Origin: Polaribacter glomeratus
GTDB lineage: Bacteria > Bacteroidota > Bacteroidia > Flavobacteriales > Flavobacteriaceae
DNA length: 64,000 bases
Direction of reading: 5' to 3'
NCBI RefSeq assembly: GCF_002954665.1
Contig: NZ_MSCM01000002.1
Coordinates: forward strand, 46,173 to 110,172
The notes beneath the pieces are model-generated. The model ran no database searches. It was not told where the DNA came from and saw only the letters and a program-made list of their open reading frames with translations. The translations under genes and the position numbers were made by a program. Of the stretch, positions 8,162-27,575 are shown in pieces; position 1 is the first letter of the stretch, and the number at the start of each line of letters is the position of its first letter.

Positions 8162-9370
8162 TTATAAAAAAGTCCCTGTTTCCTTTATTTTAAATGCAAT
8201 CGCAAACGCAAGCACACTTATAATGATCCCAATCATAAAAACGGTATAGGTAATTCTTAATATTTTGTATTTTCTATTTAACACCAATCCTAAAAAATAT
8301 AAATCTTTGGTTAAAGAACCATATAAATAGTCTCTGTCTTGCATCATTTCTGTAATTCCCCATTCAAAGTCACCTAATTTCATTTGATGGAAATTTCCAA
8401 AAAACAAAAGATTCACTTTTTTATTGGCTACATCTTCTTTTGTAAACTTGCCTCGAGTAACATTAGGTCTTGTTGCTAAAATTGATAATATAATAGAAGC
8501 CACCGTAAAAGTAACAAACACAATAGTTGGTATAATTAGGTAATTATTAGACGTATTATCTAGTTTTGGCAATAAATTAGACAACGCCAAAGAAACAATA
8601 ATTGCGTTTACCGATAGTAAAATATTAGCTTTTGTGTCTGCAATATTACTTAAAGTCATATGGTTTTTTAAGGCAACTCTAAACATGGTCTCCACCCCTC
8701 TTTCTGGCACATTACTTTTATTTTTTTTAAGATCTAGTGCTTCCTTTTTCTGATTAAATTTTCTATTTTCTTCTTTAATTTTCTTTAAATCTTTTAATAA
8801 AATTGCTATGTTTTTACTTTTAGTTATAGACCAATTTTTTAACGCAAAGTTAGTATAATAGCGATGTTTCTGTGTTAAAAACTCCAAATTAATAGTAGTC
8901 CACTCCTCATCAGAATACATTTTATTTTCAGTAATTTCCCATTCTTTTCTTAATAATGCTGTTTTGCTCTCGAAGTTCTTACTACCTAAGTGTGCACAAT
9001 CTGCATCAATAATTATTTTTTCTAGATCGTTTATAGGTTTATAACCCCTTTTTGTAGCTAAAATAATGTTAGAAATTATTTCTATTCTTTTGGTTTCAAT
9101 AGCATGCTGCGTTAAAAAATGAGTCAGAATTCGCACACTTTCTTCTTCATGATTTTGTGCTCCTTTTATAAAGCCAGTGTCATGAAACCAAACTGCTAGT
9201 TGCAAATTTTCGAAAGAAATTTCATCAACTTTTAAATTTTTTGCTAGTTCATTTGCTTTTTCTAAAACACTTTGTGTGTGCACTAAATTATGGTATACAT
9301 AAATAGTAGCTAACTGTTCATTTAATAAATCGATAACGTAATTTTCTGCATCAACTAAAAATAGGCTCAT
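8162..9370 (-). CDS. HD-domain protein fused to Pycsar-effector-type (DUF5706/PycTM) membrane domain
   Basis: The 402-residue product has an N-terminal HD phosphohydrolase domain with H31, the HD pair H63-D64 and D124 (YHNLVHTQSV, WFHDTGF, DADCAHLG). A linker rich in charged residues follows. The C-terminal half (from about residue 225) resembles DUF5706, the PycTM effector family of the Pycsar anti-phage system. It has FRVALKNHMTLSNIADTKAN, two membrane helices at about 248-305, a cytosolic stretch (LLFFGNFHQM) and a last helix at 375-397. PycTM proteins act in the inner membrane in response to cyclic pyrimidines. No pyrimidine cyclase gene is present in the window. Whether this one is a defence gene or a housekeeping relative is open. 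Confidence 0.75.
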   Translation of the reverse strand: MSLFLVDAENYVIDLLNEQLATIYVYHNLVHTQSVLEKANELAKNLKVDEISFENLQLAVWFHDTGFIKGAQNHEEESVRILTHFLTQHAIETKRIEIISNIILATKRGYKPINDLEKIIIDADCAHLGSKNFESKTALLRKEWEITENKMYSDEEWTTINLEFLTQKHRYYTNFALKNWSITKSKNIAILLKDLKKIKEENRKFNQKKEALDLKKNKSNVPERGVETMFRVALKNHMTLSNIADTKANILLSVNAIIVSLALSNLLPKLDNTSNNYLIIPTIVFVTFTVASIILSILATRPNVTRGKFTKEDVANKKVNLLFFGNFHQMKLGDFEWGITEMMQDRDYLYGSLTKDLYFLGLVLNRKYKILRITYTVFMIGIIISVLAFAIAFKIKETGTFL

Positions 9371-9659: not shown

Positions 9660-10373
9660 TTAATTAATTGAATAAGAATAGCTAAAGCCAAGAATATGTA
9701 AATTTTCGTTCTTAAAATATTTTATTATATTTTCTTCATAACGATAATAAATGCCAAATTTTCCAAAATTTTTAAACTTATAGTCTGTACCAAAAGTTAA
9801 TCTTATTTTATCTAAATTTAATTCTCTAACTTGTTGTACATTTTCTAATCCGCTAAAAAGTTCTACAGAAAACTCTGGATCTAATGCCCATTTACGTATG
9901 TTATATTCTAAATCTGTTTTAAATCTCACTGTTTCTTTTGGTAAATTGACTTCTGTGGTAGGTAGATTTAATTCTTTTTTATTTTGGTAACGCAACCTGT
10001 GCGATAACGTAAACCTTTCTATATCGTATTTAAAACTTGCATCTATATTAAATCTAAAATGACTCTCATAACCTTGTTTTTTACCTACGTTGTCATTCTC
10101 TTTTATAAATCGAGCTCCTCCACCAATTTCAAAATCTTTTATTATTTCGTATTGAAGGCCTACTTCTGTAAAATACTCGTCTGTTACTGCTGCATCTTCT
10201 TTTAGTCTCAAACTCTGTTCTACACTAATTTTTAATTTCTTTATTGGCGAATAATCTACACCTAAAGAACTCCATATTCCAAAATCTGAAGTATCTACTT
10301 GAGAAAATATTGAGCTATAAATTAAGAGAAAACAACATACTATTTGTAATCTGTTTATTTTAAACTTAATCAT
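9660..10373 (-). CDS. DUF2490 outer-membrane beta-barrel protein
   Basis: The 237-residue product has a signal peptide ending at FSQ and then alternating amphipathic strands with aromatic ends, typical of a small outer-membrane barrel. FGIWSSLGVDYSPIKKLKIS and IGGGARFI fit DUF2490. The last residues (LHILGFSYSYSIN) look like a terminal barrel strand. It is the last gene of the CotH/VTC/DUF4956 operon, and its start overlaps the DUF4956 stop by 4 bp (ATGA), so the two are translationally coupled. Its role in that system is unknown; it could be a channel or an anchor. Confidence 0.75.
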   Translation of the reverse strand: MIKFKINRLQIVCCFLLIYSSIFSQVDTSDFGIWSSLGVDYSPIKKLKISVEQSLRLKEDAAVTDEYFTEVGLQYEIIKDFEIGGGARFIKENDNVGKKQGYESHFRFNIDASFKYDIERFTLSHRLRYQNKKELNLPTTEVNLPKETVRFKTDLEYNIRKWALDPEFSVELFSGLENVQQVRELNLDKIRLTFGTDYKFKNFGKFGIYYRYEENIIKYFKNENLHILGFSYSYSIN

Positions 10374-10987
10374 TTTATTTTTTTAATTACTTGATTGTTG
10401 TAAAAAATAGTAATGGTTGCACTATCTTTTAAAAAATCTATATCACCAATTATTAGCTTATTAATTGCAATACCTGTTCTATTTTCTAGATCAGATTTAA
10501 GCAGCTCATAATTTTCTGGCTTAATATTTTCTATGTTTTCGTAAATAATTACTTTTGTAATTTCATGCTTTAAATGCCATACTTTTTCAATAATTACGAT
10601 CGCGAAGACGATAGCCGAATTAGCAAAAATAATTTCAAAATAACTCATCTTTTTATTCACAAATGAGTTCATGATAGAAACACCAATCACTACAAATAAA
10701 TAAGTCATTTCTTTTATCGGTATGGATTCTGTTCGGTAACGAATGATACCAAAAATGGCAAAAAGACCAAGGGCTAAACCTATGTCTAATTTAAATTTCT
10801 TTAGCGTAAAACATAGAAAGAAAACAATAATACTTATCATATAATAGGTAAACAAATAGTCTTTCCTTCCACTAGAGCTGTAATACAACCATCTAATGAT
10901 TAATGTTAAAAAAAACATATTCATTAAGAATATTATTGACAATTTAAAAAAATCATCATCAAATAAAGGGATGTTTAAAAAATCCAT
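10370..10987 (-). CDS. DUF4956 inner-membrane protein
   Basis: The 205-residue protein has about four membrane segments in its first 135 residues and a cytosolic C-terminal domain of about 70 residues. The DUF4956 signature is clear: GLALGLFAIFGIIRYRTESI, followed by EMTYLFVVIGVSIMNS. In many bacteria DUF4956 genes sit beside VTC-type polyphosphate polymerases and CotH kinases, as here. It starts 2 bp after the VTC gene and overlaps the barrel gene by 4 bp. A role in membrane placement of the polymerase or in transport of its product is an inference. Confidence 0.82.
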   Translation of the reverse strand: MDFLNIPLFDDDFFKLSIIFLMNMFFLTLIIRWLYYSSSGRKDYLFTYYMISIIVFFLCFTLKKFKLDIGLALGLFAIFGIIRYRTESIPIKEMTYLFVVIGVSIMNSFVNKKMSYFEIIFANSAIVFAIVIIEKVWHLKHEITKVIIYENIENIKPENYELLKSDLENRTGIAINKLIIGDIDFLKDSATITIFYNNQVIKKIK

Positions 10988-10989
10988 AG

Positions 10990-11754
10990 TTAAGCAATTA
11001 TTTTATTAATTTTAAGTAATTTATTTTTGAATAAATTTTGTTTTAAATTTGGATAAATATGAGTTACCCCAATACAATATTTACTTATACTGTAAGGCAG
11101 GTAATTAAATTTCTTTAATACTTTAACAATTGTGGCCGTTCTATCAAATTTACTTTGCTTTACTTCAATTACTACTAAGTTTTCGTAACTTTTCTCTGTA
11201 TTATCTGAAGAGTAGGTTAATTTTAAATCGATAGTAGCTCGTTCTTTATCCTCTAAATTTACTAATGTAATTCGATTAAAACGGTTCCATAAACTAGGCT
11301 TTAATTCAAAATTTTGACGTGTTATTTTAAAAATAAAATCTTTTGAGGATGTAGATAAATCCGCTTCAAAATCCTTTAGTTTAATTCTAGATTTCTTCGT
11401 TTCTCCTTTACCGTTTTTTTGTTTAATTTCTAAAAAAGTTAGGTTGGAATCAACGTATTTACGTTGCCTTATTTTTGTTCTATTAACAATACCATTATGA
11501 TGATCATGATAAAACTTAAATTCTGGTGTATCAAGATATAATGACATGTAATCCATTATCCTCTTATCTTTAATCTCTAAAACCCTGTAGGATTTTTGTA
11601 ATTCTTTTAAAATTGAAGTTAGGTAAGAAATATTAACAATAAATTTAGTGTCAGTTCTTTTCATTAAGGCAACACTGTTCATTTCATTTAAAGATACACT
11701 ATCAAATTGATGTATTACGCTCTTTAGATTCTCATATCTCTTACTTAAGTCCAT
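10990..11754 (-). CDS. VTC-domain polyphosphate polymerase
   Basis: The 254-residue cytosolic protein has the VTC4-type triphosphate-tunnel fold, which makes polyphosphate from ATP. Basic and acidic tunnel residues expected of an active enzyme are visible: R33 and K37 (MKRTDTKFIV), YLDTPEF at 73-79, K94/R96/R98 (KIRQRKY), E109 and K111 (FLEIKQK), K120-R123, DLKLTY, and the late glutamate in VIEVKQSK. There are no membrane segments, so membrane attachment would come from the DUF4956 partner 2 bp downstream. Polymerase activity is inferred from the family. Confidence 0.85.
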   Translation of the reverse strand: MDLSKRYENLKSVIHQFDSVSLNEMNSVALMKRTDTKFIVNISYLTSILKELQKSYRVLEIKDKRIMDYMSLYLDTPEFKFYHDHHNGIVNRTKIRQRKYVDSNLTFLEIKQKNGKGETKKSRIKLKDFEADLSTSSKDFIFKITRQNFELKPSLWNRFNRITLVNLEDKERATIDLKLTYSSDNTEKSYENLVVIEVKQSKFDRTATIVKVLKKFNYLPYSISKYCIGVTHIYPNLKQNLFKNKLLKINKIIA

Positions 11755-11807
11755 TAACTAATTATCAAGTTATTAACTATTTTAAATAGAAAGTTACTAT
11801 TTTAAAA

Positions 11808-14800
11808 CTATTTCTTTATTATTTTCTTTGTGATAGTTGCATTATTTGAAAAAACTTTTAGCACATAAACGCCACTCGAAAGGTTTTCCATACTCAACTG
11901 AATATTAGAAAATTTAGGAGAATCCTTGTACACAAGTTTACCAAATACATTATAAATTAAAACCTTGTCTATTATTTGGTTAGATTGAATTTTAACGTCA
12001 CCACTTGTTGGGTTAGGGTATACTTTAAGGTTCTGCAATTGTGTAAATGAATCCGAAGATAAAGTGGTATCTACTCCTTCAACAGCTATGTTATTAATAA
12101 AAACCTGCTTATTGTCTTCGATAGTCATATTCGTTCCGTTAAAACGAATTCTAACTTTAAAATTTGCGTTATTATCAGCAATAGTAACATTAGAAAAATC
12201 AAACTCTTTAATTGCATAAGCATCACTAATACTTAAATTGGGATTCGTAAGATTAGCATTAGACCAACTAGAGCCGTTCCAATAATCAACCAAAACAGTT
12301 TGAGCTGCACCATTTGAGAAAATTGCAAAAGATAATTTTACATCTCTAAAACCACTTGTTGGAAAGTTTAATTCTAACGTGTTTTCATTATTTCCGTTCT
12401 TAAAAGGTTGCTTTATTTGCACACCTCTCATAATAAAAGGGTCATACGCAATATTATGATTTCCGTTCGAAAAATAGTTTAATGCTGTAGGCTCATTTTT
12501 TCTTTCTAGAGACGCTTTTCTCCAACTAGCATTTGCATTATTAAAAGGATAACCAGTTAAAGATGATTTATAATTTATGACAGCACTTGAGCTCGTTCTA
12601 GAAAAAGTAGCATTGACTGATTGTAAGGGCGCGTCATTTGGAATATCAGCATTCATAAGCCAAAAATACATAAGGTGTTTAAAGTTGGTTATAGGATTAT
12701 AATTAGCCTGAATTTGAACAGAACCATTTGGAGTAAATGTTTGTATTGCATTTGTGCCACTAATATCACCAGACCAATGAGAAAAAACGTACCCAGGTAA
12801 TGTAACTGCTTCAACTGTTAATGGTATCGTTTTAAAATAAAAACCAGACCAAGGGTAAGGATTTTCATTTACACCAGGAGTATCTGAATGTATCTTAATT
12901 GTATTTATTTTAATAAAACCCGCTTCTATATCAGAAACACTTAAGCCAACGTCAATAGTTTCAGATATATTAAATTGATTTTTTATAAGTTGTATTTGAA
13001 CTGCTGGTCTATTTTTAGACCAATCTAGTAAATTTTGCTTTTCAGAAGATTCGTAAAAATTAGCTCTAGAGCTACGGTTTCTATCTTCTGTTAAAAATGG
13101 ACTAATCTCATCAAAAGTTTTATTTATAACTTTATCAAAGTTTTCTTTAGTAAATACAGTGTTCATGATATCTGCAAATCGATTTAAAAACTGGTTCTTA
13201 AAACCTTCATTTTTTAATAAATTTGCCAATAATGAGTTGTTATCAGACCTACCTAAATCTGCTAAATATTCTAACCAGTTTGTATTTGTACTTAAAGAAG
13301 CTTCAAAATCTTGCACGTTTAATCTCCATTTACCATCAGCATGAGAATTATTTTGAGGTGTTCTAGCTCTCCAATATTTTCGTTCATAACTATTATTAGA
13401 GGCATAAATGATCATCACTGCATGGTTCAAAAAAGACTCCATATCTAAGATTTCTGCAGCCTCTAAATATTTTAAATTATTTGCCATGTCATTGTTGATT
13501 ATAAAGTCTCTCATATCTATATAAGAGCTATAATCGCCAGCGACCCCTTCATCAAGTTCACATTGAGAACCGTTACAGCTAACTTGAATAAAGTTATCTG
13601 CATTGACTCCAAAATTAAGTTCATAATGATCGTCATCTAAACGATCTCTAACTGCATTAATTCCCCAATATTCACCATTTATAAAATTAATAACCGGTTT
13701 AATTCTAGTAACTCCATTAAATACAGGTTGCATCGCTCTACTAAAGGCTACATCATAAGCAATTGACCCTCCTTCTCCGTCTCCTCTTAAAAAGAATTTT
13801 TTATATTCTTTATTGTATAGATTTGCAGCATTTGGTATTGAGTTATCAAAAAAACCGTGAACAAACTCATTCTTACTATCATATTCGCTTCTTGCATATA
13901 ATCTTAAATTTTTAATTGGTAATCCTCTAGAGTTGTTTCCATGTATTCTTAATCCTGCATTAATGCTTTGAATAGAATTTAAATTAACTGCATCAAAGAG
14001 TTCTACATTTACAGGGTATTCCCAATCTCTACCACTTCTGGCATAATTACTAATATTTGGTCTCCAAGATTGCGTATTATCTGGGTTTTGTTGTCTCCAT
14101 GTATCAAAATCGACACCTGAAGTATAAATACCATCGTTATAATCAAATAATAAATTTTCTTGAATTTGCAGCGAAACTAGAGGAATGTTAAATGGATTAC
14201 CACCACTCCAAACAAAAAATGTTTTTGAAATTGATTCTGAACCTTTTCCATTTACAAATATTTTTGCTTTAATCACTGTAGCTTTTCTTACAGGATTTGG
14301 AGGTATATGAAGAGCATATTGATTTGTGTTTTTTATGGCTAGTTTATCTGCATCTCCAGATTTATCTCTAATAACAATTGCAGATGAGTATACGTTCGAC
14401 TTATAACTATCTGTTAATAAATCTCCATAAGGATCACCTGGAAGCAAAGGGTATAGGTTTTTGTACGTAAAATTTGTGCCAGATAAGTTGTCTAACCTTG
14501 GCTCTGAACCATCTAACGTATAAATAATTTGAGCATTTTGAACAGTCGTTGATAATGAAAGGTTAAACGTTGATGTGTAAAGGCCAGATTCGTGCGAGAA
14601 TATTGGTGGCTCTAACAATTCTGGTGTACCTGCATTAGTATTTAAAGCTAAAGGTGTTGCCGTTGTAAAAAATAACCAATCTCCTGTGCCATCTGGGCTT
14701 CTTGCGTATGAAACATCTGCTTGAAGCGCAATTGCGGGCACATCATTAATAGTAGTACCGCTTGAGTTTGTTAACAATATAGGTTCTCCAGAAGATTTTA

Positions 14801-15131
14801 TTTTAAAATTCGTGTGCAATGGCTGGCTAGGAACTGTCTTATTCTTATCAGAAGCCCAAACTAAAACAAATTGTTTTGGCTGAAGTGTATACGTAGGAAA
14901 AACCCATTTGTAAAGATTTGATGCATCGTCTGTTAAACCATAACCTCCTAAATTTACAGCAGTAGTGCCATAATTATAGATTTCTATCCAATCTTCAAAA
15001 CTACCATCCTCATCTGCAATCGTTTTGCTATTTGAAGTCATAACTTCATTAATAGCAACTTGTTGCGCATTAGTTTGTACACCAAAAATTACAAACAAAA
15101 ACATAATATAGAATAATCTACAATTAATCAT
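11808..15131 (-). CDS. CotH-family kinase with lamin-tail domain, T9SS-sorted
   Basis: The 1107-residue secreted protein has a signal peptide ending near NAQ22. Domains in order are: lamin-tail domain (24-140, NEVMTSNSKTIADEDGSFED), chitobiase-type C-terminal module (about 175-250, IYTLDGSEPR), CotH kinase-like domain (about 310-650, LRIHGNNSRG, FLRGDGEGG, EYWGINAVRDRLDDDHY, LNVQDFEASLS), InlB B-repeat-like part (FSHWSGDISG), a jelly-roll-like region, and a T9SS sorting domain (VYPNPTSGDVKIQS, ending KKIIKK). CotH proteins are atypical protein kinases, first known from spore coats. It leads the operon with VTC, DUF4956 and DUF2490 genes (53-bp gap). The substrate is unknown. Confidence 0.88.
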   Translation of the reverse strand: MINCRLFYIMFLFVIFGVQTNAQQVAINEVMTSNSKTIADEDGSFEDWIEIYNYGTTAVNLGGYGLTDDASNLYKWVFPTYTLQPKQFVLVWASDKNKTVPSQPLHTNFKIKSSGEPILLTNSSGTTINDVPAIALQADVSYARSPDGTGDWLFFTTATPLALNTNAGTPELLEPPIFSHESGLYTSTFNLSLSTTVQNAQIIYTLDGSEPRLDNLSGTNFTYKNLYPLLPGDPYGDLLTDSYKSNVYSSAIVIRDKSGDADKLAIKNTNQYALHIPPNPVRKATVIKAKIFVNGKGSESISKTFFVWSGGNPFNIPLVSLQIQENLLFDYNDGIYTSGVDFDTWRQQNPDNTQSWRPNISNYARSGRDWEYPVNVELFDAVNLNSIQSINAGLRIHGNNSRGLPIKNLRLYARSEYDSKNEFVHGFFDNSIPNAANLYNKEYKKFFLRGDGEGGSIAYDVAFSRAMQPVFNGVTRIKPVINFINGEYWGINAVRDRLDDDHYELNFGVNADNFIQVSCNGSQCELDEGVAGDYSSYIDMRDFIINNDMANNLKYLEAAEILDMESFLNHAVMIIYASNNSYERKYWRARTPQNNSHADGKWRLNVQDFEASLSTNTNWLEYLADLGRSDNNSLLANLLKNEGFKNQFLNRFADIMNTVFTKENFDKVINKTFDEISPFLTEDRNRSSRANFYESSEKQNLLDWSKNRPAVQIQLIKNQFNISETIDVGLSVSDIEAGFIKINTIKIHSDTPGVNENPYPWSGFYFKTIPLTVEAVTLPGYVFSHWSGDISGTNAIQTFTPNGSVQIQANYNPITNFKHLMYFWLMNADIPNDAPLQSVNATFSRTSSSAVINYKSSLTGYPFNNANASWRKASLERKNEPTALNYFSNGNHNIAYDPFIMRGVQIKQPFKNGNNENTLELNFPTSGFRDVKLSFAIFSNGAAQTVLVDYWNGSSWSNANLTNPNLSISDAYAIKEFDFSNVTIADNNANFKVRIRFNGTNMTIEDNKQVFINNIAVEGVDTTLSSDSFTQLQNLKVYPNPTSGDVKIQSNQIIDKVLIYNVFGKLVYKDSPKFSNIQLSMENLSSGVYVLKVFSNNATITKKIIKK

Positions 15132-15392: not shown

Positions 15393-15839
15393 ATGATTAC
15401 ATGGAAAGAAGTTATCAACTTCACAATTAAAGGGAATTTAACTCCAAATAAAAGAGTTGAAAAATCAGAACAAGAATGGAAAGAACTATTAACTCCAGAG
15501 CAATTTAGAATTACCAGAAAAAAAGGAACAGAAAGACCAAATTCTGGTGCTTTATGTAGTATTTACGATGAAGGAAAATACAACTGTATTTGTTGTAATA
15601 CGCCTTTATTTGACTCTACAATTAAATTCGATTCTAACTCTGGATGGCCAAGTTTTACGCAACCAATTAAAGAAAATGCTATTAAATATCACAAAGATAT
15701 TTCTTTAGGCATGATTAGAGTTGAAGTGATGTGCAATACTTGCGATGCACATTTAGGACATATTTTTCCTGATGGCCCAGAACCAAGTGGTTTGCGTTAT
15801 TGCATCAATTCTGAATCGATGGTTTTAGATAAAAAATAA
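15393..15839 (+). CDS. msrB: Peptide-methionine (R)-S-oxide reductase MsrB
   Basis: MsrB reduces the R epimer of methionine sulfoxide in proteins. The 148-residue product has the zinc-binding pairs C65/C68 and C114/C117 (YNCICC, CNTCDAHLGH), the substrate-binding GWPSF at 84-88, and catalytic C137 in GLRYCINS. C55 could be the resolving cysteine. No signal peptide is seen, so it is cytoplasmic. It opens a plus-strand oxidative-repair cluster with msrA 87 bp downstream. The upstream region is shared with the divergent CotH operon. Confidence 0.96.
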   Translation: MITWKEVINFTIKGNLTPNKRVEKSEQEWKELLTPEQFRITRKKGTERPNSGALCSIYDEGKYNCICCNTPLFDSTIKFDSNSGWPSFTQPIKENAIKYHKDISLGMIRVEVMCNTCDAHLGHIFPDGPEPSGLRYCINSESMVLDKK

Positions 15840-15846
15840 AAACGTT

Positions 15847-15911
15847 ATTGCGAGTTCACGAAGCAATCTTAAACTTAAATTACAAATGTATTCGTTTTAT
15901 TTTCTCGCAAT
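15847..15911. repeat. Palindromic intergenic repeat between msrB and msrA
   Basis: ATTGCGAG at 15847-15854 is matched by CTCGCAAT at 15904-15911, enclosing about 49 nt. The left arm with CACGAAGCAATCT resembles, from memory, an intergenic repeat scattered in Flavobacteriaceae genomes. No copy elsewhere in this window was recognised. Confidence 0.4.
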
Positions 15912-15926
15912 TATAAAAATATTAGC

Positions 15927-16463
15927 ATGAGTAAAAACATACAAATTACCACTATTGGTGGTGGCTGTTTTTGGTGTACAGAAGCTGTATTTCAAAAAGT
16001 AAAAGGTGTAGAAAAAGTGGTTTCTGGTTATGCAGGCGGCAATGCTCCTGGAAGACCAACGTATAGAGAAATTTGTTCAGGATTAACCGGGCATGCCGAA
16101 GTAATTCAAATTACATTTAATGCTAATTTGATTTCTTTAGAAGATATTTTAGTCATATTTATGACCACTCACGATCCTACAACTTTAAATAGACAAGGCG
16201 CAGATAGAGGTACACAATATCGCTCTGTAATCTATTATCACAGCGAAATTCAACGAAAAATAGCAGAAGAAGTATTAACACAAATACAACCTTATTATAC
16301 TGATCAGATTACCACAGAGTTAAGTGCTATGCCTATCTTTTACGAAGCGGAAAAAGAACATCAAAATTATTATTTAGAAAACACACAACAAGGATATTGT
16401 AGTTATGTAATTGAGCCAAAATTAGCCAAATTAAGAAAACTACATGCAGATAAATTAAAGTAA
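15927..16463 (+). CDS. msrA: Peptide-methionine (S)-S-oxide reductase MsrA
   Basis: The 178-residue enzyme reduces S-methionine sulfoxide. The catalytic motif GGGCFWC places the nucleophile at C14. The substrate-pocket residues of GYAGG, the glutamate of TGHAEV and the tyrosine of QYRS are all present. A C-terminal cysteine (QQGYCSYV) could resolve the disulfide. It is followed after 1 bp by a glutaredoxin-like gene and then selO, so the genes are probably co-transcribed. Confidence 0.96.
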   Translation: MSKNIQITTIGGGCFWCTEAVFQKVKGVEKVVSGYAGGNAPGRPTYREICSGLTGHAEVIQITFNANLISLEDILVIFMTTHDPTTLNRQGADRGTQYRSVIYYHSEIQRKIAEEVLTQIQPYYTDQITTELSAMPIFYEAEKEHQNYYLENTQQGYCSYVIEPKLAKLRKLHADKLK

Positions 16464-16464
16464 T

Positions 16465-16701
16465 ATGATTAAATTATATGGCACAGAAAAATGTCATAAA
16501 ACTCGATATTATAAAATATTTTTAGAAACGCGTAATGTAGATTACGCGTTTTTAGATATTACACAAAATGAGGCAAACGCAGAAGAATTGCGTAACTTGT
16601 ATGAAAATAGAAAATTAAATTTTCCTACTATTACTATTCTTGATAAAAAATTAAGAAATCCTTCTGATAAAGAGCTCCAAAAATGGATTAATAAATTATG
16701 A
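16465..16701 (+). CDS. Glutaredoxin-family protein (monothiol CHKT motif)
   Basis: The 78-residue product has a glutaredoxin-like fold: the first strand and redox site MIKLYGTEKCHKTRYYKIFL, the cis-proline segment NFPTITI and the last helix KELQKWINKL. The usual CPYC is replaced by C10-H-K-T, a single cysteine, so it would act as a monothiol or atypical glutaredoxin. It lies between msrA (1 bp away) and selO (4-bp overlap). E. coli SelO is known to AMPylate glutaredoxin, which makes this neighbour a candidate SelO substrate. That is an inference from context. Confidence 0.8.
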   Translation: MIKLYGTEKCHKTRYYKIFLETRNVDYAFLDITQNEANAEELRNLYENRKLNFPTITILDKKLRNPSDKELQKWINKL

Positions 16702-18254
16702 AACTACACATTAAAGACACTTTTATTTCTGAAAACCCTGCTGATAAAAACACAGAAAACTCGAGAAGACAAGTAACTGAAGCCGTATTTTCTTTTGTAA
16801 ATCCTAAGAAAACTAAAAACCCTGAAGTACTGCACGTTTCGCAAGAAATGGCTTCTGCACTACATATTTCTGAAGAAGAAACAAAATCAGAATTCTTTAA
16901 AAATATAGTTACTGGTAATGAAGTGTATCCAAATACAAAACCTTATTCTATGTGTTATGGTGGTCATCAATTTGGCAATTGGGCGGGGCAATTAGGAGAC
17001 GGAAGAGCAATTAACCTATTTGAAGTTGAACACAATACTAAAAACTGGAAAGTACAATTAAAAGGCGCTGGCGAAACGCCATATTCTAGAACTGCGGATG
17101 GCTTAGCGGTTTTGCGCTCATCCGTGAGAGAATATTTATGCAGTGAAGCAATGTTTCATTTAAACGTACCAACCACCCGCGCTTTGTCTTTAAGTTTGTC
17201 TGGAGATTCGGTTTTACGGGATCTTTTATATGATGGAAATCCTGCATATGAAAAAGGAGCAATTGTTTCAAGAATTTCACCTTCGTTTTTACGTTTTGGT
17301 AATTATGAAATTTTTGCAGCCAGAAAAGATGTAAAAAATTTAAAAGCATTAGTTGATTATACCATCAAACATCATTTTTCACATTTAGGAAAACCATCCA
17401 AAGAAAATTATATTGCTTTTTTTAAGGAAGTTTCAGAGCGTACTTTAAACATGATAATTGATTGGCAACGTGTTGGTTTTGTGCATGGTGTAATGAATAC
17501 AGATAATATGTCAATCTTGGGTTTAACCATCGACTTTGGTCCTTACGGATGGTTGGAAGGTTTTGATTTTGGATGGACGCCAAATACAACCGACAGTCAA
17601 CACAAGCGCTACAGATATGGAAATCAGCCAAATATGGGTTTATGGAATTTATACCAACTAGCAAACTCTTTGTACCCAATAATTGAAGAAGTAGATCCTT
17701 TAAATGCTATTTTGGAACAATACAAGCTCGATTTTGAATTGAAATCTTTACAGATGATGAAATCGAAATTAGGGTTGTTTTCTTCGGATGAAAATGATGT
17801 TGAACTAATTCAGAATTTAGAAGATACTTTACAATTAGTAGAAACAGACATGACCATTTTCTTTAGAAACTTAAGTGATTTTTCTGACGCAAATTCTGGT
17901 TTTAATTTGATAGAAAAATCATTTTATGACCTTGAAAATATTTCTGAGGATGTGAAAAATAAGTGGAACGAATGGTTCAAAAAATATGCCGAAAGACTTG
18001 AAATTGATAGAATTTCACCCGAAGAAAGAAAAGAAAAAATGAATGCTGTAAACCCTAAATATGTGCTTAGAAATTACATGTCGCAAATGGCAATTGATGA
18101 AGCTGATAAAGGTAATTACACTTTAATTGATGAATTATTTCAACTTTTAAAAAATCCGTATGCAGCGCAACCAGAAAATGAAAAATGGTTTGCGAAAAGA
18201 CCAGAATGGGCACGAAATAAAGTAGGTTGCTCTATGTTATCTTGTAGTTCTTAA
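16698..18254 (+). CDS. selO: Protein adenylyltransferase SelO
   Basis: SelO is a pseudokinase-fold enzyme that transfers AMP to proteins and links redox stress to S-glutathionylation. The 518-residue product has the family block YGGHQFGNWAGQLGDGRA (88-103), K122 in LKGAGETPYSRT, the catalytic-base motif HGVMNTDN with D269, and a DFG-like DF at 279-280. C511 and C516 in the C-terminal GCSMLSCSS resemble the redox-sensitive C-terminal cysteine of other SelO proteins. The start overlaps the glutaredoxin stop by 4 bp (ATGA). Confidence 0.95.
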   Translation: MKLHIKDTFISENPADKNTENSRRQVTEAVFSFVNPKKTKNPEVLHVSQEMASALHISEEETKSEFFKNIVTGNEVYPNTKPYSMCYGGHQFGNWAGQLGDGRAINLFEVEHNTKNWKVQLKGAGETPYSRTADGLAVLRSSVREYLCSEAMFHLNVPTTRALSLSLSGDSVLRDLLYDGNPAYEKGAIVSRISPSFLRFGNYEIFAARKDVKNLKALVDYTIKHHFSHLGKPSKENYIAFFKEVSERTLNMIIDWQRVGFVHGVMNTDNMSILGLTIDFGPYGWLEGFDFGWTPNTTDSQHKRYRYGNQPNMGLWNLYQLANSLYPIIEEVDPLNAILEQYKLDFELKSLQMMKSKLGLFSSDENDVELIQNLEDTLQLVETDMTIFFRNLSDFSDANSGFNLIEKSFYDLENISEDVKNKWNEWFKKYAERLEIDRISPEERKEKMNAVNPKYVLRNYMSQMAIDEADKGNYTLIDELFQLLKNPYAAQPENEKWFAKRPEWARNKVGCSMLSCSS

Positions 18255-18266
18255 AAACAAAAAAAC

Positions 18267-19211
18267 ATGAAATTAGGATTAGGAACTGCAGCTTTAGGAA
18301 GACCACAATACATAAATGTTCGTCAAGAAACTTGTGATAACTCAGATTTAGCCGAATTCAGAAAACACAGTTTTTCTGTTTTAGAGGCTGCTTATAATTC
18401 AGGAATCAGATATTTTGACACCGCTCCTGGTTATGGTTTGGCAGAAGCATTAGTAGTAGAGTGGTTGCAAACAAAAGATGATAAATCCATTGAAATTGCT
18501 ACAAAATGGGGATACACATACACCGCAAATTTTGATAAAAAGGCAATAGTACATGAAGTAAAAGAGCACAGTATTTCAAAATTAAACGAACAATGGAACT
18601 TTTCTAAACAACTTCTACCTTATTTAAAAGTATATCAAATTCATTCTGCAACGTTAGAAACTGGCGTTTTAGAAAATAAGCAAGTTTTAGAGCAACTGGC
18701 TTTTTTAAAAAAGGAACACAACCTAAAAATTGGTTTAACAACCACCGGAACAAATCAAATTGAAGTCATTAAAAAAGCGTTAACTGTTTTGGTTGATGGT
18801 GAACAAATTTTTGACTTATTCCAAGTAACTTATAATTTTTTAGATCAAAGTTTATTAGCTATTTCAAAGGAATTAACCAGTCAAAATAAATCGATTGTTA
18901 TTAAAGAAGCTTTGGCCAATGGCAGAATTTTTAAAAATAAAAACTATCCTCACTACAATAAAATGCATACAATTGTAGAAAATCTAGCCAAAAAACACAA
19001 GGTTGGTGTGGATGCAATTTCTTTAAAATATTGTGAGCAAACAATCCCAGAAAGTATTGTTTTAAGCGGAGCGAGTAACGTTAAACAACTAGAAGAGAAT
19101 TTAAAAATGAATTCCTTTTCTCTTTCTTCTGATGAAATTGAGCTGTTAAATTCTTTTAAAGTTGCTCCAGAATTTTACTGGTCAGAACGCAAAAAATTAC
19201 AATGGAATTAA
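18267..19211 (+). CDS. Aldo/keto reductase
   Basis: This 314-residue NAD(P)H-dependent TIM-barrel oxidoreductase shows the catalytic set of the family: D and Y in YFDTAPGYG (about 50-58), K in IATKWGY (about 94) and H in YQIHSAT (about 127). Length is typical. It starts 12 bp after selO, and its end overlaps the second msrA-like gene by 10 bp, so it belongs to the oxidative-repair run. The closest functional guess is a reductase of reactive aldehydes or sugars; the substrate cannot be told from sequence. Confidence 0.88.
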   Translation: MKLGLGTAALGRPQYINVRQETCDNSDLAEFRKHSFSVLEAAYNSGIRYFDTAPGYGLAEALVVEWLQTKDDKSIEIATKWGYTYTANFDKKAIVHEVKEHSISKLNEQWNFSKQLLPYLKVYQIHSATLETGVLENKQVLEQLAFLKKEHNLKIGLTTTGTNQIEVIKKALTVLVDGEQIFDLFQVTYNFLDQSLLAISKELTSQNKSIVIKEALANGRIFKNKNYPHYNKMHTIVENLAKKHKVGVDAISLKYCEQTIPESIVLSGASNVKQLEENLKMNSFSLSSDEIELLNSFKVAPEFYWSERKKLQWN

Positions 19212-19732
19212 CAAAAATAGCTTTTGGTGGTGGTTGTCATTGGTGCACGGAAGCTGTTTTTCAAGCTTTAATAGGCGTTCATAAAGTTGAGCAAGGTTTT
19301 ATTTCATCCACAGACGAAAACAACACTTTTTCTGAAGCTGTAATTGTACATTTTGAAGCTAAAAAAATTGAATTAAAAATACTTATTGAAATTCATTTAC
19401 GCACCCATAAAAGTACGAGTAATCACTCTATGAGAAACAAATATCGTTCTGCAGTTTATTATTATTCTATTTCTCAAAAAGAAGAAAGTTTAAAAATAAT
19501 CGATGAATTAAAATCAAGTTTCAAGGATAAAATTATTACCAAAGTAGTATCATTTACCTCTTTTAAACCTTCTGCAGTAGCCTTTCAAAATTACTATCAA
19601 TCAAATCCTAACAAACCATTCTGTGAAACTTACATCAATCCTAAATTGAAATTTTTAGCGCAAAACTTCGCTACTCAAATCGAAAAAAGTAAAGTTTCTC
19701 ACTTTATTTCGACTATTGAAGAAACACATTAA
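19202..19732 (+). CDS. Divergent MsrA paralogue (GCHWC active site)
   Basis: The 176-residue protein has the MsrA fold with catalytic C12 in GGGCHWCTEAVF. The pocket phenylalanine of GCFW is histidine here. The GYAGG loop is GFISS, and the TGHAEV block becomes FSEAVIV, which keeps a glutamate. KYRSAVYY keeps the tyrosine. The residues around the methyl-binding pocket have therefore changed, so substrate preference may differ from the canonical enzyme at 15927-16463. It overlaps the aldo/keto reductase by 10 bp and is followed 2 bp later by a CxxC protein. Confidence 0.8.
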   Translation: MELTKIAFGGGCHWCTEAVFQALIGVHKVEQGFISSTDENNTFSEAVIVHFEAKKIELKILIEIHLRTHKSTSNHSMRNKYRSAVYYYSISQKEESLKIIDELKSSFKDKIITKVVSFTSFKPSAVAFQNYYQSNPNKPFCETYINPKLKFLAQNFATQIEKSKVSHFISTIEETH

Positions 19733-20245: not shown

Positions 20246-23200
20246 GTGTCTAAAAAAGGACAAAAGAGAAAATATCGCTTTTTGAGAAGATTTTTAAGGA
20301 TTCTTGCTGTATTTTTTGTTTTTATTAGTTTGTTTATACTTTTTATTAGAAGTGCTTGGGGACAAAATATTATTGTTACTAAAGTAGTCAACTATGTTTC
20401 AGATAAAACTAACACTAAAGTTGCTATAGATAAACTTTTTTTAACATTTAAAGGTGGCTTGCAATTAGACGGTTTATATCTAGAAGACACCAAAGGAGAC
20501 ACGCTAATTTATTCTAAATCTCTAGAAGCAAATCTACCCATTTGGGCACTAATTAAAGGCGATGCCATTGGTGTTGACGATTTAGAGTGGAACGGTTTAC
20601 GCGCAAATATTAAAAGAAAAGACACCATTTCTGGTTATAATTTTCAGTTTTTAATTGATGCTTTTGTACCTAAAAACACTACACAAATTGCAGCAGACAC
20701 CATAGCAAAACCGATAGCTATTAATATTGGAAACCTTAATTTTAAAAATATTAATATTGTTTTTAACGATGAAGTTTTAGGAATTAATAGCCATTTTAAA
20801 ATCGGAAACCTAACTACAACTTTAGAAAAAATTGATGTTCAGAAAATGATTTTTAATGCAGATGAGCTCTCGATTTCTAACGCAACAATTAAGGTGATTC
20901 AAAAGCCAGTTAACACACAAACCTCAACAGAGGAAACGAAATTGCCAATTTTATCTGCAAATAATATTACGTTAAATAATGTAAACGCCTATTATGCATC
21001 AAGCGCAGATAAATTAATTGCTGATGTTAAAATTGATAACTTTTACACAGAAATTCCGCAAATAAATTTAGCAACTAATAATTTTAAGTTACATACTATT
21101 CAGCTTAAAAACTCTGTAATAAATCTTAAAACAGCCTCAAAATCTACAAATATAACTTCGGATGAAAAGATACATCCGTCTAATTCATCAGAAATAATTT
21201 GGCCAAAATTAACCGTTCAAATTGATGAAGTCGAACTAGAAAATAACACTATTAATTATTTTGTTGACAAAGCAAAAGTTAAGAAAAACAGATTTAATCC
21301 AAATGCAATTGCATTAGAACATGTAACCATAAAAGCATCTGATATTTTTTTGAAAGATAAAAAAGCAGGCTTGCAATTGTCTGAATTTAATTTTAAAGAA
21401 AAATCAGGTTTTCGTTTAAAGAAGTTTGCATTAAATGCACAAGTAACGGATACTGAATTAGAAATTTCAGATCTTACAATCGCTTTAAATAAGAGTAAAA
21501 TTTCTGGTGCTGTTTTGGCAAAATACAAATCGCTTACTCAATTAATTTCATCACCAGAAAAAACGAGCGTTCAATTAAAAATTCCGCAATTTTCAATCTG
21601 GTTAGAGGAGCTTTTTACGTTTCAACCTCGTTTAAAACAAAATGAATACTTAAACAAAATAAGTAAAAAAGAGCTTTCTGGAAAAGCAAATGTAAACGGA
21701 ATTTTAGCTGATTTAAACATCACTAACACTCACCTAAATTGGGGAAATTCAACTAAAATTTCCTTGGATGCGAATATCAAAAACATTACAAATACAACTA
21801 AATTAACCCTTAGTTTACCCAATTTTAAGGCTAAGACAAAACGAAATGATCTTTTGCAAATTGTAGATGAAAAAGCATTCGGAATTCATATACCAGAAGA
21901 TATTTTAATTGCAATAAATGCCAATGGTACTTTAAATACAATAACCACAAATGCAAAAATAACTACAAGCCAAGGAGTTGCAACTATTAAAGGGAATTTT
22001 GAAAATAAAGATGTAATTAGTTACAACACAGAAGTAAAAATTGATAATTATAATGTTGGCTCACTTTTAAAGAACCCTAAATTTGGCGAATTAAGCATTA
22101 CTTTAAAATCCGCCGGAAAAGGTAAAAACACTAACAATTTAGACGCTACTTTACAAACCAATATTTCTAAGTTTCAAATAGAAAATTATCTACTTAAAGA
22201 CCTAAATATAACTGGAGATTTAAAAAAAGGGAAGGGAAATATAACTGCGCTGTATAAAGATGAAAACCTTAATTTAAATTTAAATGCAATTGTAAATTTA
22301 GATACTGTAAACACAAAAGCAACCATAAATTTAAACCTAATTGGTGCAGATTTAGAGGCACTTGGTTTTGTAAATCGTAAAGTAAAAACAGGAATGGAAC
22401 TTTCTTTAAATTTTGAAGGAAACTCTAAGAATTACAGGCTAAAGAGCAACGTAAAAAACGGTGTATTTGTATACGATAATAGAACGTATTTGCTGGGGCA
22501 ATTATCAGCAAACGCCTATGTTGACAAAGACACAACGGCAGTTTCTGTAAAAAACAAAATGATTGATTTAAGTTTAGAATCAAACACAGATCCGCAAACA
22601 TTTAGCACTGCAATAAAACGTCATATTTCTAATTATTTTTACAGAGATGTTGCTCTCTTAGACTCTATTGAAAACCCCGTAAATTTACTATTAAAAGCTA
22701 AAATATCTCAAACGCCACTTTTAAAAGATGTTTTTCTGGTTAACTTAAAAGACTTAGATACTATAAAAATCGCCATAGACTTTAAAGAGAAAAAACGTAA
22801 ACTAACAGCCAATATTACAGCTCCTTTTATAAACTTTAACGATAATAAAATAGAGGGGTTGGCTTTTTCTATGAATACAAATAAAGACGATTTCAATTTT
22901 AATTTAGGGTTTAAAGAGCTAATTGTAGGCTCTTTAAATGTGCCTGAAACAATAATTACGGGCACACAAAAAAACAATGAATTATCGCTTAGTTTTTTAG
23001 GTTTCCATCAAGGAAAAAAATTGATGAACATAAACACCAAGATTACTGGTAACAGAGATAAATTAAGATTCACAGTAAACCAAGACAGCTTATTATTAAA
23101 TAGTTACGCTTGGAAAATCCCTAAAACTAATGAAGTTGTTTTTGAGAAAAATAAATTATCTTTTACAGATTTTAAATTAAGTAAAGACAAGCAATCTATC

Positions 23201-25279: not shown

Positions 25280-25286
25280 ATAAATT

Positions 25287-27575
25287 TTGAGAACATCCCT
25301 TAAAAAATATCCTATTTTAATACTTGTATTCGTGTCTTTTTACGCGTGCAGTATCAAAAAATACATACCAAAAGGTGAGCATTTATACACAGGCGCATCC
25401 ATAGAAATTGAAGCAGATTCTACCACACAAAGAGTTGATGATTTACGAAAAGATTTAGCCAACGTATTAAGACCAAAAGAGAATACAAAATTACTTGGAA
25501 TGCATCTTGGACTTTATTATTTCTATAAAAATCAGCAAGGAAAATCTAATTTTTTAAACAAGTGGTTGTATAAAAAAATAGGGCAAAAACCTGTTTATAA
25601 ATCAGCTATAAACAAATTAGAAAATGAAGATATTTTAAGGAATAAATTAGAAAATTATGGCTTTTTCTACAGCACTATTTCTTCTAGTTTTAAAGTTAAG
25701 AAAAAAGAGGCATCCTTAATTTACCGTTTAAAAATTCCTGCACCTTATAAAATGGCGAGCTATAAAATAGACAGTATGGCGTCACCTATTTATGAGGATA
25801 TAAAAAATTTAACCCAAACTTCTCCGTTTCAAAAAAATGCGCGCTTCGATTTAGGAAATTTAAAATTAGAAAGAGAACGGTTAGATACCGAATTAAAACA
25901 AAAAGGCTATTATAATTTTAATCCAGATTTTTTACTTTTTGAAGCAGACACAAATCAGTATAAAAACAAGAGCAAACAGTTCGATTTATTTTTAACATTA
26001 AAAGCAAAGGTTCCAAAAAAAGCAATAATTCCGTATAAAATCAGAAAAATAAATATTTTTCCGAATTATAATTTAAATGATTCTACAAAAGTAAAAACCA
26101 CTCGATTTAAAGACAAAACCTATCATCAAGATACCCTCTTTTTTGAACCAAAATATTTAGATGAATTTATTACCTTAAAAGAAGGTGAATTTTTTAATCC
26201 TATTTCCTCTAAAAACACCGCGAGAAGACTTTCTACAATTGGCGTATATAAGTTTGTTAACATTCAGTATAATGAAATAAAAGACTCGTTAACAGATACT
26301 TTAGGCAACTTAGAAGCTTCAATTTTTTTATCACCATTAACAAAACGCGCCATAAGAGCAGAATTGCAAGCAGTTACAAAATCTAATAATTTTGCAGGAC
26401 CAGAACTGACTTTAACCTACAGCAATAGAAATTTATTTAATGGCGGCGAAACTTTAAATATTAGTACAAATATTGGTTATGAAACGCAAATTTCTAGTGG
26501 TAGCAATTCGGGTTTAAGTAGTTTAGAGCTGGGTTTAAAAGGCGAACTTATTATTCCTAGAGTTATTGCTCCGTTTTCTATAAGAGAAGATTTTTTTGAA
26601 TATTCTATTCCCAAAACAAAAATAAGTTTGAGTACAACGTATTTAAACAGAAGTAAATTATACACACTTTTATCTGGTAGTGCACTTTTTGGTTATTTAT
26701 GGAATGCCAATAAATATACTACCTACGAATTTAATCCTATTTCTGTAAATTACACTAGTTTATCAAATACTACCACAGAGTTTCAAGATATTTTAAATAG
26801 CAACTCCTTTTTAAAAAGCAGTTTTGACCAGCAGTTTATAAGCGGTCTTACATTTTCTTATACCTATAATGAAATGATAAATTCTGCCAAATCACATCAA
26901 TTTTACCTGCAATCCACATTAGATGTTGCTGGGAATTCAATTAGTTTATTAAGCAAAGAAAAAGAAGTTGGCAAGTCCAAACAATTTTTAGGATTGGAAT
27001 ATGCCCAATATGCAAAAGCAGATTTTGATGCAAGATATCATTATAATTTTGGCGATAAAAACGAACAAACAATTGCTGCTAGATTGTTTGCCGGTTATGG
27101 TTTGGCGTATGGTAATTCTGATGTTATTCCGTTTGTAAAACAATATTTTTCTGGCGGACCTTATAGCGTTCGTGCATTTAATATTCGGTCTTTAGGACCC
27201 GGAACTTACGATGAAAACAACGCTCAAAATGCGAGTTCTTTTTTTGATAAAACTGGTAATATTCGTTTAGAAGCAAATATCGAATATCGATTTCCTATTT
27301 ATTCTTTCTTTAAAGGTGCTGTTTTTGCGGATGCTGGAAACGTATGGAACTCTGTTGCAAACCCAGATTTTAAAGGGAAAGACACCTTTACGTCTAACTT
27401 TATAAATGAACTAGGTATGGGCGCAGGTATTGGTTTGCGAGTAGATGTGCAAGGTTTTGTAATTCGGTTTGATTTGGCTGCTCCTTTTCATGATCCTGCA
27501 TTAGCATTAGACAAAAGATGGGATTTTAGAGTTGATGAACCTGTTTTTAACTTTGCAATCGGGTATTCTTTTTAG
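25287..27575 (+). CDS. tamL: TamA/BamA-family outer-membrane lipoprotein (TamL-like)
   Basis: The 762-residue Omp85-family protein has a lipoprotein signal with lipobox FYAC (cysteine 21) instead of the usual cleaved signal; a lipid-anchored TamA is the Bacteroidota form. POTRA domains are followed by the 16-stranded barrel at about 370-762, with the late Omp85 motif GGPYSVRAF (about 626-634) and a terminal FNFAIGYSF strand. The start is a TTG at 25287. The next in-frame ATG would remove the lipoprotein signal, so the TTG is preferred. It forms an operon with tamB. Confidence 0.9.
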   Translation: MRTSLKKYPILILVFVSFYACSIKKYIPKGEHLYTGASIEIEADSTTQRVDDLRKDLANVLRPKENTKLLGMHLGLYYFYKNQQGKSNFLNKWLYKKIGQKPVYKSAINKLENEDILRNKLENYGFFYSTISSSFKVKKKEASLIYRLKIPAPYKMASYKIDSMASPIYEDIKNLTQTSPFQKNARFDLGNLKLERERLDTELKQKGYYNFNPDFLLFEADTNQYKNKSKQFDLFLTLKAKVPKKAIIPYKIRKINIFPNYNLNDSTKVKTTRFKDKTYHQDTLFFEPKYLDEFITLKEGEFFNPISSKNTARRLSTIGVYKFVNIQYNEIKDSLTDTLGNLEASIFLSPLTKRAIRAELQAVTKSNNFAGPELTLTYSNRNLFNGGETLNISTNIGYETQISSGSNSGLSSLELGLKGELIIPRVIAPFSIREDFFEYSIPKTKISLSTTYLNRSKLYTLLSGSALFGYLWNANKYTTYEFNPISVNYTSLSNTTTEFQDILNSNSFLKSSFDQQFISGLTFSYTYNEMINSAKSHQFYLQSTLDVAGNSISLLSKEKEVGKSKQFLGLEYAQYAKADFDARYHYNFGDKNEQTIAARLFAGYGLAYGNSDVIPFVKQYFSGGPYSVRAFNIRSLGPGTYDENNAQNASSFFDKTGNIRLEANIEYRFPIYSFFKGAVFADAGNVWNSVANPDFKGKDTFTSNFINELGMGAGIGLRVDVQGFVIRFDLAAPFHDPALALDKRWDFRVDEPVFNFAIGYSF

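Follow-up and report, generated by a model that had tools for sequence, protein, structure and literature searches.

A VTC–DUF4956 Gene Pair in a Polaribacter glomeratus Operon as a Candidate Bacterial Counterpart of the Eukaryotic Polyphosphate Synthase-Translocase

Introduction

The stretch of DNA analysed here, called the window, comprises 64,000 nucleotides of Polaribacter glomeratus (NCBI RefSeq assembly GCF_002954665.1, contig NZ_MSCM01000002.1, positions 46,173 to 110,172 of the forward strand), and all positions given below are those of the window unless a locus is named. Between 9660 and 15131, its minus strand carries four genes, which encode a CotH-family surface protein, a VTC-domain enzyme, a DUF4956 membrane protein and a DUF2490 protein. 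The core of this module is the pair formed by the VTC enzyme and the DUF4956 protein, while CotH is an optional component outside that core. As judged from its sequence and predicted model, the VTC gene likely encodes a working polyphosphate polymerase, and the operon may correspond, in bacteria, to the VTC synthase-translocase of eukaryotes and place polyphosphate outside the cytoplasm. We offer the mechanism as a whole tentatively, at a probability that falls a little short of even; our confidence in the polymerase step alone is higher. Published work is cited by PMC number, and what is said of it refers to excerpts of those papers.

The Operon and Its Gene Products

The features of the operon are as follows (aa, amino acids; T9SS, type IX secretion system; ORF, open reading frame):

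11808..15131, minus strand: CotH-family surface protein, 1107 aa, probable pseudokinase (ORF, Pfam, NCBIfam, active-site alignment)
14739..15074, minus strand: lamin tail domain, aa 20-131 of the CotH protein (Pfam PF00932, E 4.2e-18)
13005..13952, minus strand: CotH domain, aa 394-709 (Pfam PF08757, E 1.9e-20; alignment to 5jd9)
13389..13391, minus strand: codon of Ser581, at the place of the CotH catalytic Asp (alignment)
11817..12023, minus strand: T9SS type A C-terminal sorting domain, aa 1037-1105 (PF18962, E 4.7e-13; TIGR04183 of NCBIfam, E 3.3e-12)
10990..11754, minus strand: VTC-domain (triphosphate tunnel) enzyme, 254 aa, candidate polyphosphate polymerase (PF09359, E 1.5e-28)
Key residues of the VTC protein: R33, K37, R96, R98, E109, K111, K121, R161, R172, E197, K199, K225 (alignments)
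10370..10987, minus strand: DUF4956 inner-membrane protein, 205 aa, candidate translocator (PF16316, E 6.5e-51)
9660..10373, minus strand: DUF2490 protein, 237 aa, overlapping DUF4956 by 4 bp (PF10677, E 1.6e-21)

The four minus-strand ORFs of the first-pass annotation were confirmed, with gaps of 53 bp and 2 bp and a 4-bp overlap computed from the ORF coordinates. The named Pfam domains of all four proteins score above the curated cut-offs, reaching 100.4 bits against 23 for PF09359 in the VTC protein and 172.9 bits against 30.6 for PF16316 in the DUF4956 protein. The CotH protein combines a signal peptide (recognised by eye) with lamin-tail, CHB_HEX, Fn3-associated, CotH and InlB-like parts and the T9SS type A tail. 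The DUF2490 protein, which we take from its family to be an outer-membrane beta-barrel, also matches the outer-membrane family PorP_SprF more weakly (Pfam, E 1.6e-05). Family knowledge, signal sequences seen by eye and the T9SS tail agree with the initial assignment of VTC to the cytosol, DUF4956 to the inner membrane, DUF2490 to the outer membrane and CotH to the cell surface.

The spacing of the four genes suggests a single transcript; this reading draws on spacing because promoter-like sites (29 versus 35.3 in shuffles) and terminator-like sites (1 versus 2.1) are no commoner here than in shuffled sequences. That the linkage goes beyond chance follows from the gene order, which is preserved in many other genomes. 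The host genome (4 contigs, 4.06 Mb) has single matches to VTC and DUF4956, three to CotH and four to DUF2490, and the nearest named locus found is that of Flavivirga jejuensis, whose DUF4956 protein is 73 percent identical.

The VTC Enzyme

The AlphaFold2 model of the VTC protein has a mean predicted local distance difference test (pLDDT) score of 96, and its top 13 PDB matches in Foldseek are all eukaryotic VTC proteins (Vtc4, Vtc3, Vtc2 and chains of the VTC complex), with E values of 4e-13 to 1.4e-10 and TM-scores by query (TMq) of 0.53-0.64. The single sequence found no match in PDB; with a profile of 18 VTC relatives, 8 of 8 matches at E up to 1 were VTC proteins. In the profile alignment, numbered by hand, R96, R98 and E197 align with R264, R266 and E426 of Vtc4, while K37, E109, K111, K121, R161, R172, K199 and K225 align with residues of the tunnel. 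These eleven positions are invariant both in the 18 sequences and in an alignment of 34, made of the window protein and every second (33 of 65) VTC protein of 225-275 aa.

A yeast complex with the Vtc4 R264/R266/E426 triple mutation is catalytically impaired, according to the excerpt of PMC9911596. Since the eleven catalytic and tunnel positions are invariant and the predicted fold is VTC-like, the gene product is likely a working polymerase. The assignment to the VTC polymerase family made in the first-pass annotation thus holds at the level of sequence, as the known catalytic residues are present and the VTC fold is the nearest one.

The closest known system is the yeast VTC complex (the Vtc4 domain of the triphosphate tunnel metalloenzyme (TTM) fold, with Vtc1/Vtc3; PDB 3g3q, 8i6v), which has the same fold and catalytic positions in common with the window protein. 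It is likewise built from an enzyme and a membrane partner, and is proposed to couple polyphosphate synthesis to translocation (PMC9911596, excerpt). The operon differs in pairing its enzyme with DUF4956 and in adding a presumed outer-membrane barrel and a protein of the cell surface. Pfam at E up to 1 detects neither an SPX domain nor a membrane domain of the VTC1 type in the VTC or DUF4956 protein, which is why the operon may act like a VTC complex and is not classed as one.

Linkage of VTC and DUF4956

In a survey of 199 genomes of the host's family, DUF4956 occurs in 27 and VTC in 17, and 17 of 17 VTC genomes also have DUF4956 (Fisher p 5e-18). The 27 genomes carry 31 DUF4956 copies and 19 VTC copies, and every one of these VTC copies (19/19) lies within 5 kb of a DUF4956. 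Proximity of the other two genes is less regular: a DUF2490 lies within 1.5 kb of 16/31 DUF4956 copies, a Pfam CotH within 5 kb of 8/31, and, remote CotH-like proteins excluded, a Pfam CotH within 5 kb of 5/19 VTC copies. A CotH count of 12 for 30 regions of this survey includes remote relatives found with an iterated profile (group B, described below).

A further 80 loci come from genome records. They are the best matches to a query alignment in which the window's type carried extra weight, and the shares below hold for that type only. Four of them (L115, L129, L140, L159) have no DUF4956 ORF in the caller used, which leaves 76, and some of the 80 stop at contig ends. The loci are partly non-independent: L087 duplicates L058 and was left out of the CotH alignment, and L090, closely similar to L059, was retained. 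In this Bacteroidota-weighted set, VTC stands directly upstream of DUF4956 in 68/76 loci, with a spacing of -29 to +80 bp; DUF2490 follows DUF4956 directly in 39/76, and both neighbours are in place in 36/76.

The order is therefore kept across other genera, as the check set by the first-pass annotation had asked. CotH, which that annotation had treated as an integral part of the system, falls within the same-strand run in only 13/76 loci. The barrel gene, whose linkage it had proposed to survey, lies close by or directly downstream in the copies counted above, and 33/76 loci have no DUF2490 in the run. Within the host's own genus, two members gave no match to the window CotH at E 1e-20, and one of these genomes, also searched with Pfam, has no DUF4956, VTC or CotH; the distribution is hence patchy. 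An apparent VTC-DUF4956 fusion in Bacteroides cellulosilyticus (L131:9116-10654), one ORF matching both families, proved on translation to be an artefact of a run of N at the junction.

Arrangements and Partner Genes in Relatives

Two main arrangements occur among the 30 survey regions. Group A has the order VTC-DUF4956-DUF2490, with CotH before or after it, another gene, or nothing, while group B (9 loci) consists of DUF4956, a protein of 500-1000 aa with an N-terminal hydrophobic stretch, and VTC. The large group-B protein has beta-helix matches, one of them above the cut-off. An inorganic pyrophosphatase accompanies group B in 4/9 loci and a calcineurin-like phosphoesterase (metallophosphoesterase) in 5/9, one of them on the opposite strand; Pfam was run on these proteins in two loci and the others were assigned by clustering. 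Most begin with a lipoprotein-type signal, as seen by eye.

Variants without VTC are also found. Locus L062 has the order CotH-DUF4956-DUF2490, and in L124 DUF4956 is accompanied by a metallophosphoesterase. In two genomes with no VTC match, a secreted-looking PPDK_N protein adjoins DUF4956 (L065:9734-12235 and L067:992-3450); in the L065 copy, Pfam detects an ATP-grasp domain of PPDK and, weakly, a phosphohistidine-like match to GWD1. Because DUF4956 copies occur without VTC, twice beside such a protein, DUF4956 is not solely a VTC subunit. Cthe_2159 carbohydrate-binding proteins follow DUF4956-DUF2490 in 8/107 loci with a DUF4956 ORF, as assigned by clustering, and 3 of 3 tested with Pfam were confirmed (L131, L152, L163); L163 has CotH and Cthe_2159 together. 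Nine neighbours have no Pfam match (L056_11, L057_13, L060_12, L084_08, L081_07, L124_10, L165:7993-10062, L167:4700-5779, L169:2636-4603). Downstream of the operon CotH in Flavivirga lies a YHYH-domain protein (L085:13502-14230), and an ORF that follows in L060 has a similar C-terminus and no Pfam match.

Occurrence in Other Phyla

VTC and DUF4956 are adjacent in four phyla: Bacteroidota, Bacillota, Deinococcota and Pseudomonadota (Alphaproteobacteria). A Deinococcus taeanensis plasmid has CotH-polymerase-DUF4956 in the same order as the window, a Pseudobutyrivibrio plasmid has these three genes in that order inside a polysaccharide cluster (glycosyltransferases, pyruvyl transferases), and a Planococcus plasmid has polyphosphate polymerase-DUF4956-CotH in a run that includes a glycosyltransferase. 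The co-occurrence of CotH, VTC and DUF4956 in other phyla, stated in the first-pass annotation, is borne out by these three cases. In Deinococcus QL22, the polymerase-DUF4956 pair lies near phosphonate transporter genes and an annotated acid phosphatase (below the cut-off in Pfam).

The order is reversed, DUF4956-polymerase, in two Aminobacter, one Shinella and one Nitratireductor. A phytase-like protein is present in 4 of 4 alphaproteobacterial loci opened: it follows the polymerase directly in the two Aminobacter and the Shinella, and in Nitratireductor a phosphate transporter lies between the two. The family was confirmed with Pfam in one Aminobacter and in Nitratireductor. The Aminobacter and Shinella loci opened are 3 of 11 matches; the plasmid loci H3, H5 and H6 had no usable annotation, and H25 was left out. 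Extracytoplasmic phosphate chemistry is suggested by the pyrophosphatases, phosphoesterases and phytase-like proteins that some of the loci encode. To this extent the earlier suggestion of such chemistry finds fitting neighbours in a minority of loci elsewhere.

Other outer-membrane genes also adjoin DUF4956. In Pseudoalteromonas, the gene 1 bp after DUF4956 encodes a porin with a match (E 2.4e-47) to Porin_O_P, the family of phosphate-selective porins O and P, and in Hymenobacter the next gene is TolC. OprO prefers polyphosphate, and the Porin_O_P family is broad. Genes of these kinds (DUF2490, Porin_O_P, TolC) were seen beside DUF4956 in diderms only, though not beside every diderm copy, and two annotated monoderm loci have no outer-membrane gene there.

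The DUF4956 Membrane Protein

The DUF4956 model, built from 63 sequences at a pLDDT of 88, predicts five long helices together with an alpha/beta domain at the C-terminus. Residues invariant in the 63 aligned sequences, namely the window protein and 62 of 66 listed DUF4956 proteins of 185-245 aa, include F76, I78, F79, I81, R83, Y84, R85, T86, E93, Y96, N107, N123 and R170, among others. An MgtC-like or VTC1-like fold was considered and rejected, as the profile gave 0 PDB matches and Foldseek none at E 0.001 or better. The best VIA-align match, spanning 66 residues of a designed protein, was weak at Z 6.2. Weak or missing structural matches are no proof of a new fold.

That DUF4956 may carry polyphosphate is suggested mainly by its bond to VTC. 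The papers returned by searches for the family names, which did not extend to subscription papers or preprints and were not aimed at DUF2490 or CotH pseudokinases, propose no transport role for DUF4956 in the excerpts considered. Bacteroides thetaiotaomicron BT3498-BT3499 are likewise adjacent DUF4956 and DUF2490 genes; they are known to us from a row of an expression table, which gives no function (PMC10434189). Regulation of this pair by iron was set aside, as its 7.6-fold lower expression without iron is not significant (P 0.175; same excerpt).

The CotH Surface Protein

In the alignment to 5jd9, Ser581 falls at Asp228, Asp608 at Asp251, Glu610 at Asp253 and Asp496 at a conserved Glu; Asp228 and Asp251 are 23 residues apart in the 5jd9 chain, matching their numbering. 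The D228Q variant of Bacillus subtilis CotH is inactive (PMC7821199, excerpt). The window protein thus shares the CotH domain PF08757 with the spore-coat kinase (PDB 5jd9/5jda; PMC7821199) and keeps Asp251, part of the DFG-like site, while differing in Asp228 (Ser), Asp253 (Glu) and the conserved Glu (Asp) and in being T9SS surface cargo rather than a spore protein. It is a probable surface pseudokinase, and the surface phosphorylation that the first-pass annotation had considered is not supported for it, with the catalytic position occupied by Ser and two other conserved acidic positions changed. Evidence for the mineral that the annotation had also raised did not emerge, though no search was aimed at it.

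A paralog in the host genome (C1:357k, 51 percent identical) has Ala at Asp228; both proteins retain Asp251 and have Glu for Asp253 and Asp for the conserved Glu. Because both share the loss of the Asp and yet stay full-length, a non-catalytic role has probably been kept. The third host CotH (C1:1048457) retains Asp228 and Asp251. Among 33 rows of CotH and CotH-like proteins, the Asp228 column has Asp in 25, His in six remote group-B proteins, where the alignment is uncertain, and Ser or Ala only in the two host proteins. All four positions are retained in 7/7 relatives covering the CotH domain; these are the relatives outside the host genome that do so among 30 loci fetched, most others matching the lamin-tail part.

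The group-B proteins are possible remote relatives of CotH. Pfam finds no CotH domain in six of them (L075_06, L075_09, L078_06, L083_09, L084_09, L077_01), two small group-B alignments reach 96 percent probability against the CotH profile, and HMMER searches of ten such proteins against CotH give weak scores for six and none over threshold for four. In L059 (7565-12578) and L090, two CotH proteins flank VTC-DUF4956-DUF2490 in one run, one lacking Asp251 and the other keeping both Asp residues, an arrangement that by analogy recalls the pseudokinase-kinase pair Fam20A/Fam20C (PMC4421793, PMC5865150, excerpts). The domain name alone would make the window's large protein a kinase; its catalytic Asp is lost.

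Proposed Mechanism and Alternatives

The proposal builds on the genes, order, linkage, predicted VTC fold and residues, and the loss of the catalytic Asp established above. At the cytoplasmic face, the VTC protein would build polyphosphate from the gamma-phosphate of ATP, and DUF4956, made together with it, would take the growing chain through the inner membrane, or else anchor the enzyme and thread the chain. In two-membrane bacteria, an outer-membrane barrel (here DUF2490) might pass polyphosphate or its short products, or hold polyphosphate at the outer membrane. The CotH/lamin-tail protein, exported by the T9SS, could act as a surface partner by binding the product or a surface polymer or by organising either of them, and it probably no longer phosphorylates any target. 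We infer here the identity of the polymer, its export and direction of transport, and the roles of DUF4956, DUF2490 and CotH.

In a broader form, which we regard as doubtful, a widespread VTC-DUF4956 synthase-translocase of bacteria and archaea would export polyphosphate, unlike polyphosphate kinase (PPK), whose product is inside. A barrel (DUF2490, perhaps an OprO/P-type porin or TolC) would complete the path in diderms, and secreted phosphatases and CotH-type kinases or pseudokinases would use the polymer, which might serve as phosphoryl donor in places with little ATP.

The host genome gave no PPK1 match, which speaks for the proposal; several points count against it. This genome has three PPK2 matches and PPK1 occurs in 11/17 VTC genomes, so that polyphosphate could be made elsewhere. 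DUF4956 stands without VTC in 10/27 genomes, in some with DUF2490 or CotH alone and twice beside a PPDK_N protein (L065, L067); DUF2490 is missing from the run in the 33/76 loci noted above. No VTC is annotated within 6 kb of the Porin_O_P locus of Pseudoalteromonas or the TolC locus of Hymenobacter, and these loci therefore tie no barrel to polyphosphate. No adjacent barrel is listed in the opened Deinococcus and alphaproteobacterial loci, which are diderm. Loci with phosphatase neighbours are in the minority, and DUF4956 has no similarity to a solved channel detected by PDB profile search, Foldseek or VIA-align. Lastly, the module is linked to Pel and other polysaccharide loci.

This last point leads to another explanation, unlikely in our judgement, in which the module is an exopolysaccharide accessory: VTC and DUF4956 would regulate or modify a surface glycan, for instance by phosphorylating it or tuning its synthase, and CotH or Cthe_2159 would act on or bind the glycan. 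The co-occurrence of CotH, polyphosphate polymerase (PPP) and DUF4956 in Gram-positive Pel loci is already in print: in streptococci and clostridia the three directly adjoin pelDEADAFG, with a variant set in bifidobacteria, and regulation by phosphorylation was suggested (PMC7112168, excerpt). The same three families are contiguous in the window, which differs in having DUF2490 and a CotH with a T9SS tail and no catalytic Asp. The surroundings of the Pseudobutyrivibrio and Planococcus genes and the Cthe_2159 proteins in 8/107 loci fit a glycan as well. However, no glycan synthase is present in the operon or the 16 Pfam-scanned window proteins (of 47 ORFs of at least 120 aa), nor are pel genes or DUF4832, the 16 being the four operon proteins and 12 others, the nearest on both sides included, with the rest of the genome outside this search. 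None of the recurrent clusters in the runs could be assigned to a glycan synthase, many neighbours having no annotation, and some partners in group B and Alphaproteobacteria are phosphatases.

A similar gene set is carried by Clostridium perfringens NELoc-2 (PMC2879425, PMC11677781, excerpts), with VTC-domain genes, CotH, HEAT and glycosyltransferase arranged as on the Planococcus plasmid; its host is monoderm, unlike that of the window, and no barrel is listed in the excerpt of PMC2879425. By order and length, its 222-226 aa "tubulin/FtsZ GTPase" genes occupy the place of DUF4956, and the old names are probably wrong. We found no publication naming CotH, VTC and DUF4956 together by those names, subscription papers and preprints being outside the coverage.

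We give little credence to a second explanation, in which DUF4956 and the barrel would be a supply route bringing a phosphoryl donor (polyphosphate or nucleotide) to extracytoplasmic kinases. VTC, where it occurs, would make this donor, and its users would be CotH or PPDK-like proteins. CotH is enriched in DUF4956 genomes (21/27 versus 49/172, Fisher p 1.4e-6, uncorrected for genome size or kinship), and the CotH-DUF4956-DUF2490 set of L062 and the secreted-looking PPDK_N/GWD-like neighbours in L065 and L067 would fit such a route. The Bacillus subtilis control genome has CotH and no DUF4956, in keeping with it. Bacillus subtilis CotH works inside the mother cell. On the other hand, the window CotH is without the catalytic Asp, and CotH is still present in the 49 genomes without DUF4956. 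Finally, that the VTC protein might be some other triphosphate tunnel enzyme (a tripolyphosphatase or one acting on nucleotides) that serves as a membrane regulator, with no polymer made, is quite improbable: ygiF with bound tripolyphosphate and putative class IV cyclases have the same fold and come next in the Foldseek list, but the 13 nearest structures and all PDB profile matches are VTC proteins and the Vtc4 catalytic positions are retained.

Neighbouring Genes

Beside the operon, a 402-aa protein (8162-9370, minus strand) has a C-terminal Pycsar 2TM effector (PycTM) domain, on which PADLOC and Pfam agree. Divergent from the operon, the plus strand at 15393-19732 encodes MsrB, an MsrA-like ORF (so labelled since it clusters with the PMSR protein at 19202), a SelO adenylyltransferase, an aldo-keto reductase and the PMSR protein. 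The Nitratireductor plasmid likewise has MsrB-MsrA immediately upstream of DUF4956-polymerase; with the window, these are two cases only. Further along the plus strand (20246-27575), a 1677-aa ORF is followed by an Omp85-superfamily protein.

Conclusions

Two open questions are how polyphosphate exits bacterial cells and what powers phosphorylation outside their cytoplasm. Both can be put to direct tests with this two-gene core, found adjacent in four phyla: its aligned Bacteroidota sequences have the catalytic residues of the eukaryotic polymerase, and the fold of its membrane partner is not a recognised one. DUF4956 and DUF2490, two families of "unknown function", gain a concrete hypothesis, under which they would help to carry polyphosphate out of the cytoplasm and, in diderms, across or to the outer membrane.

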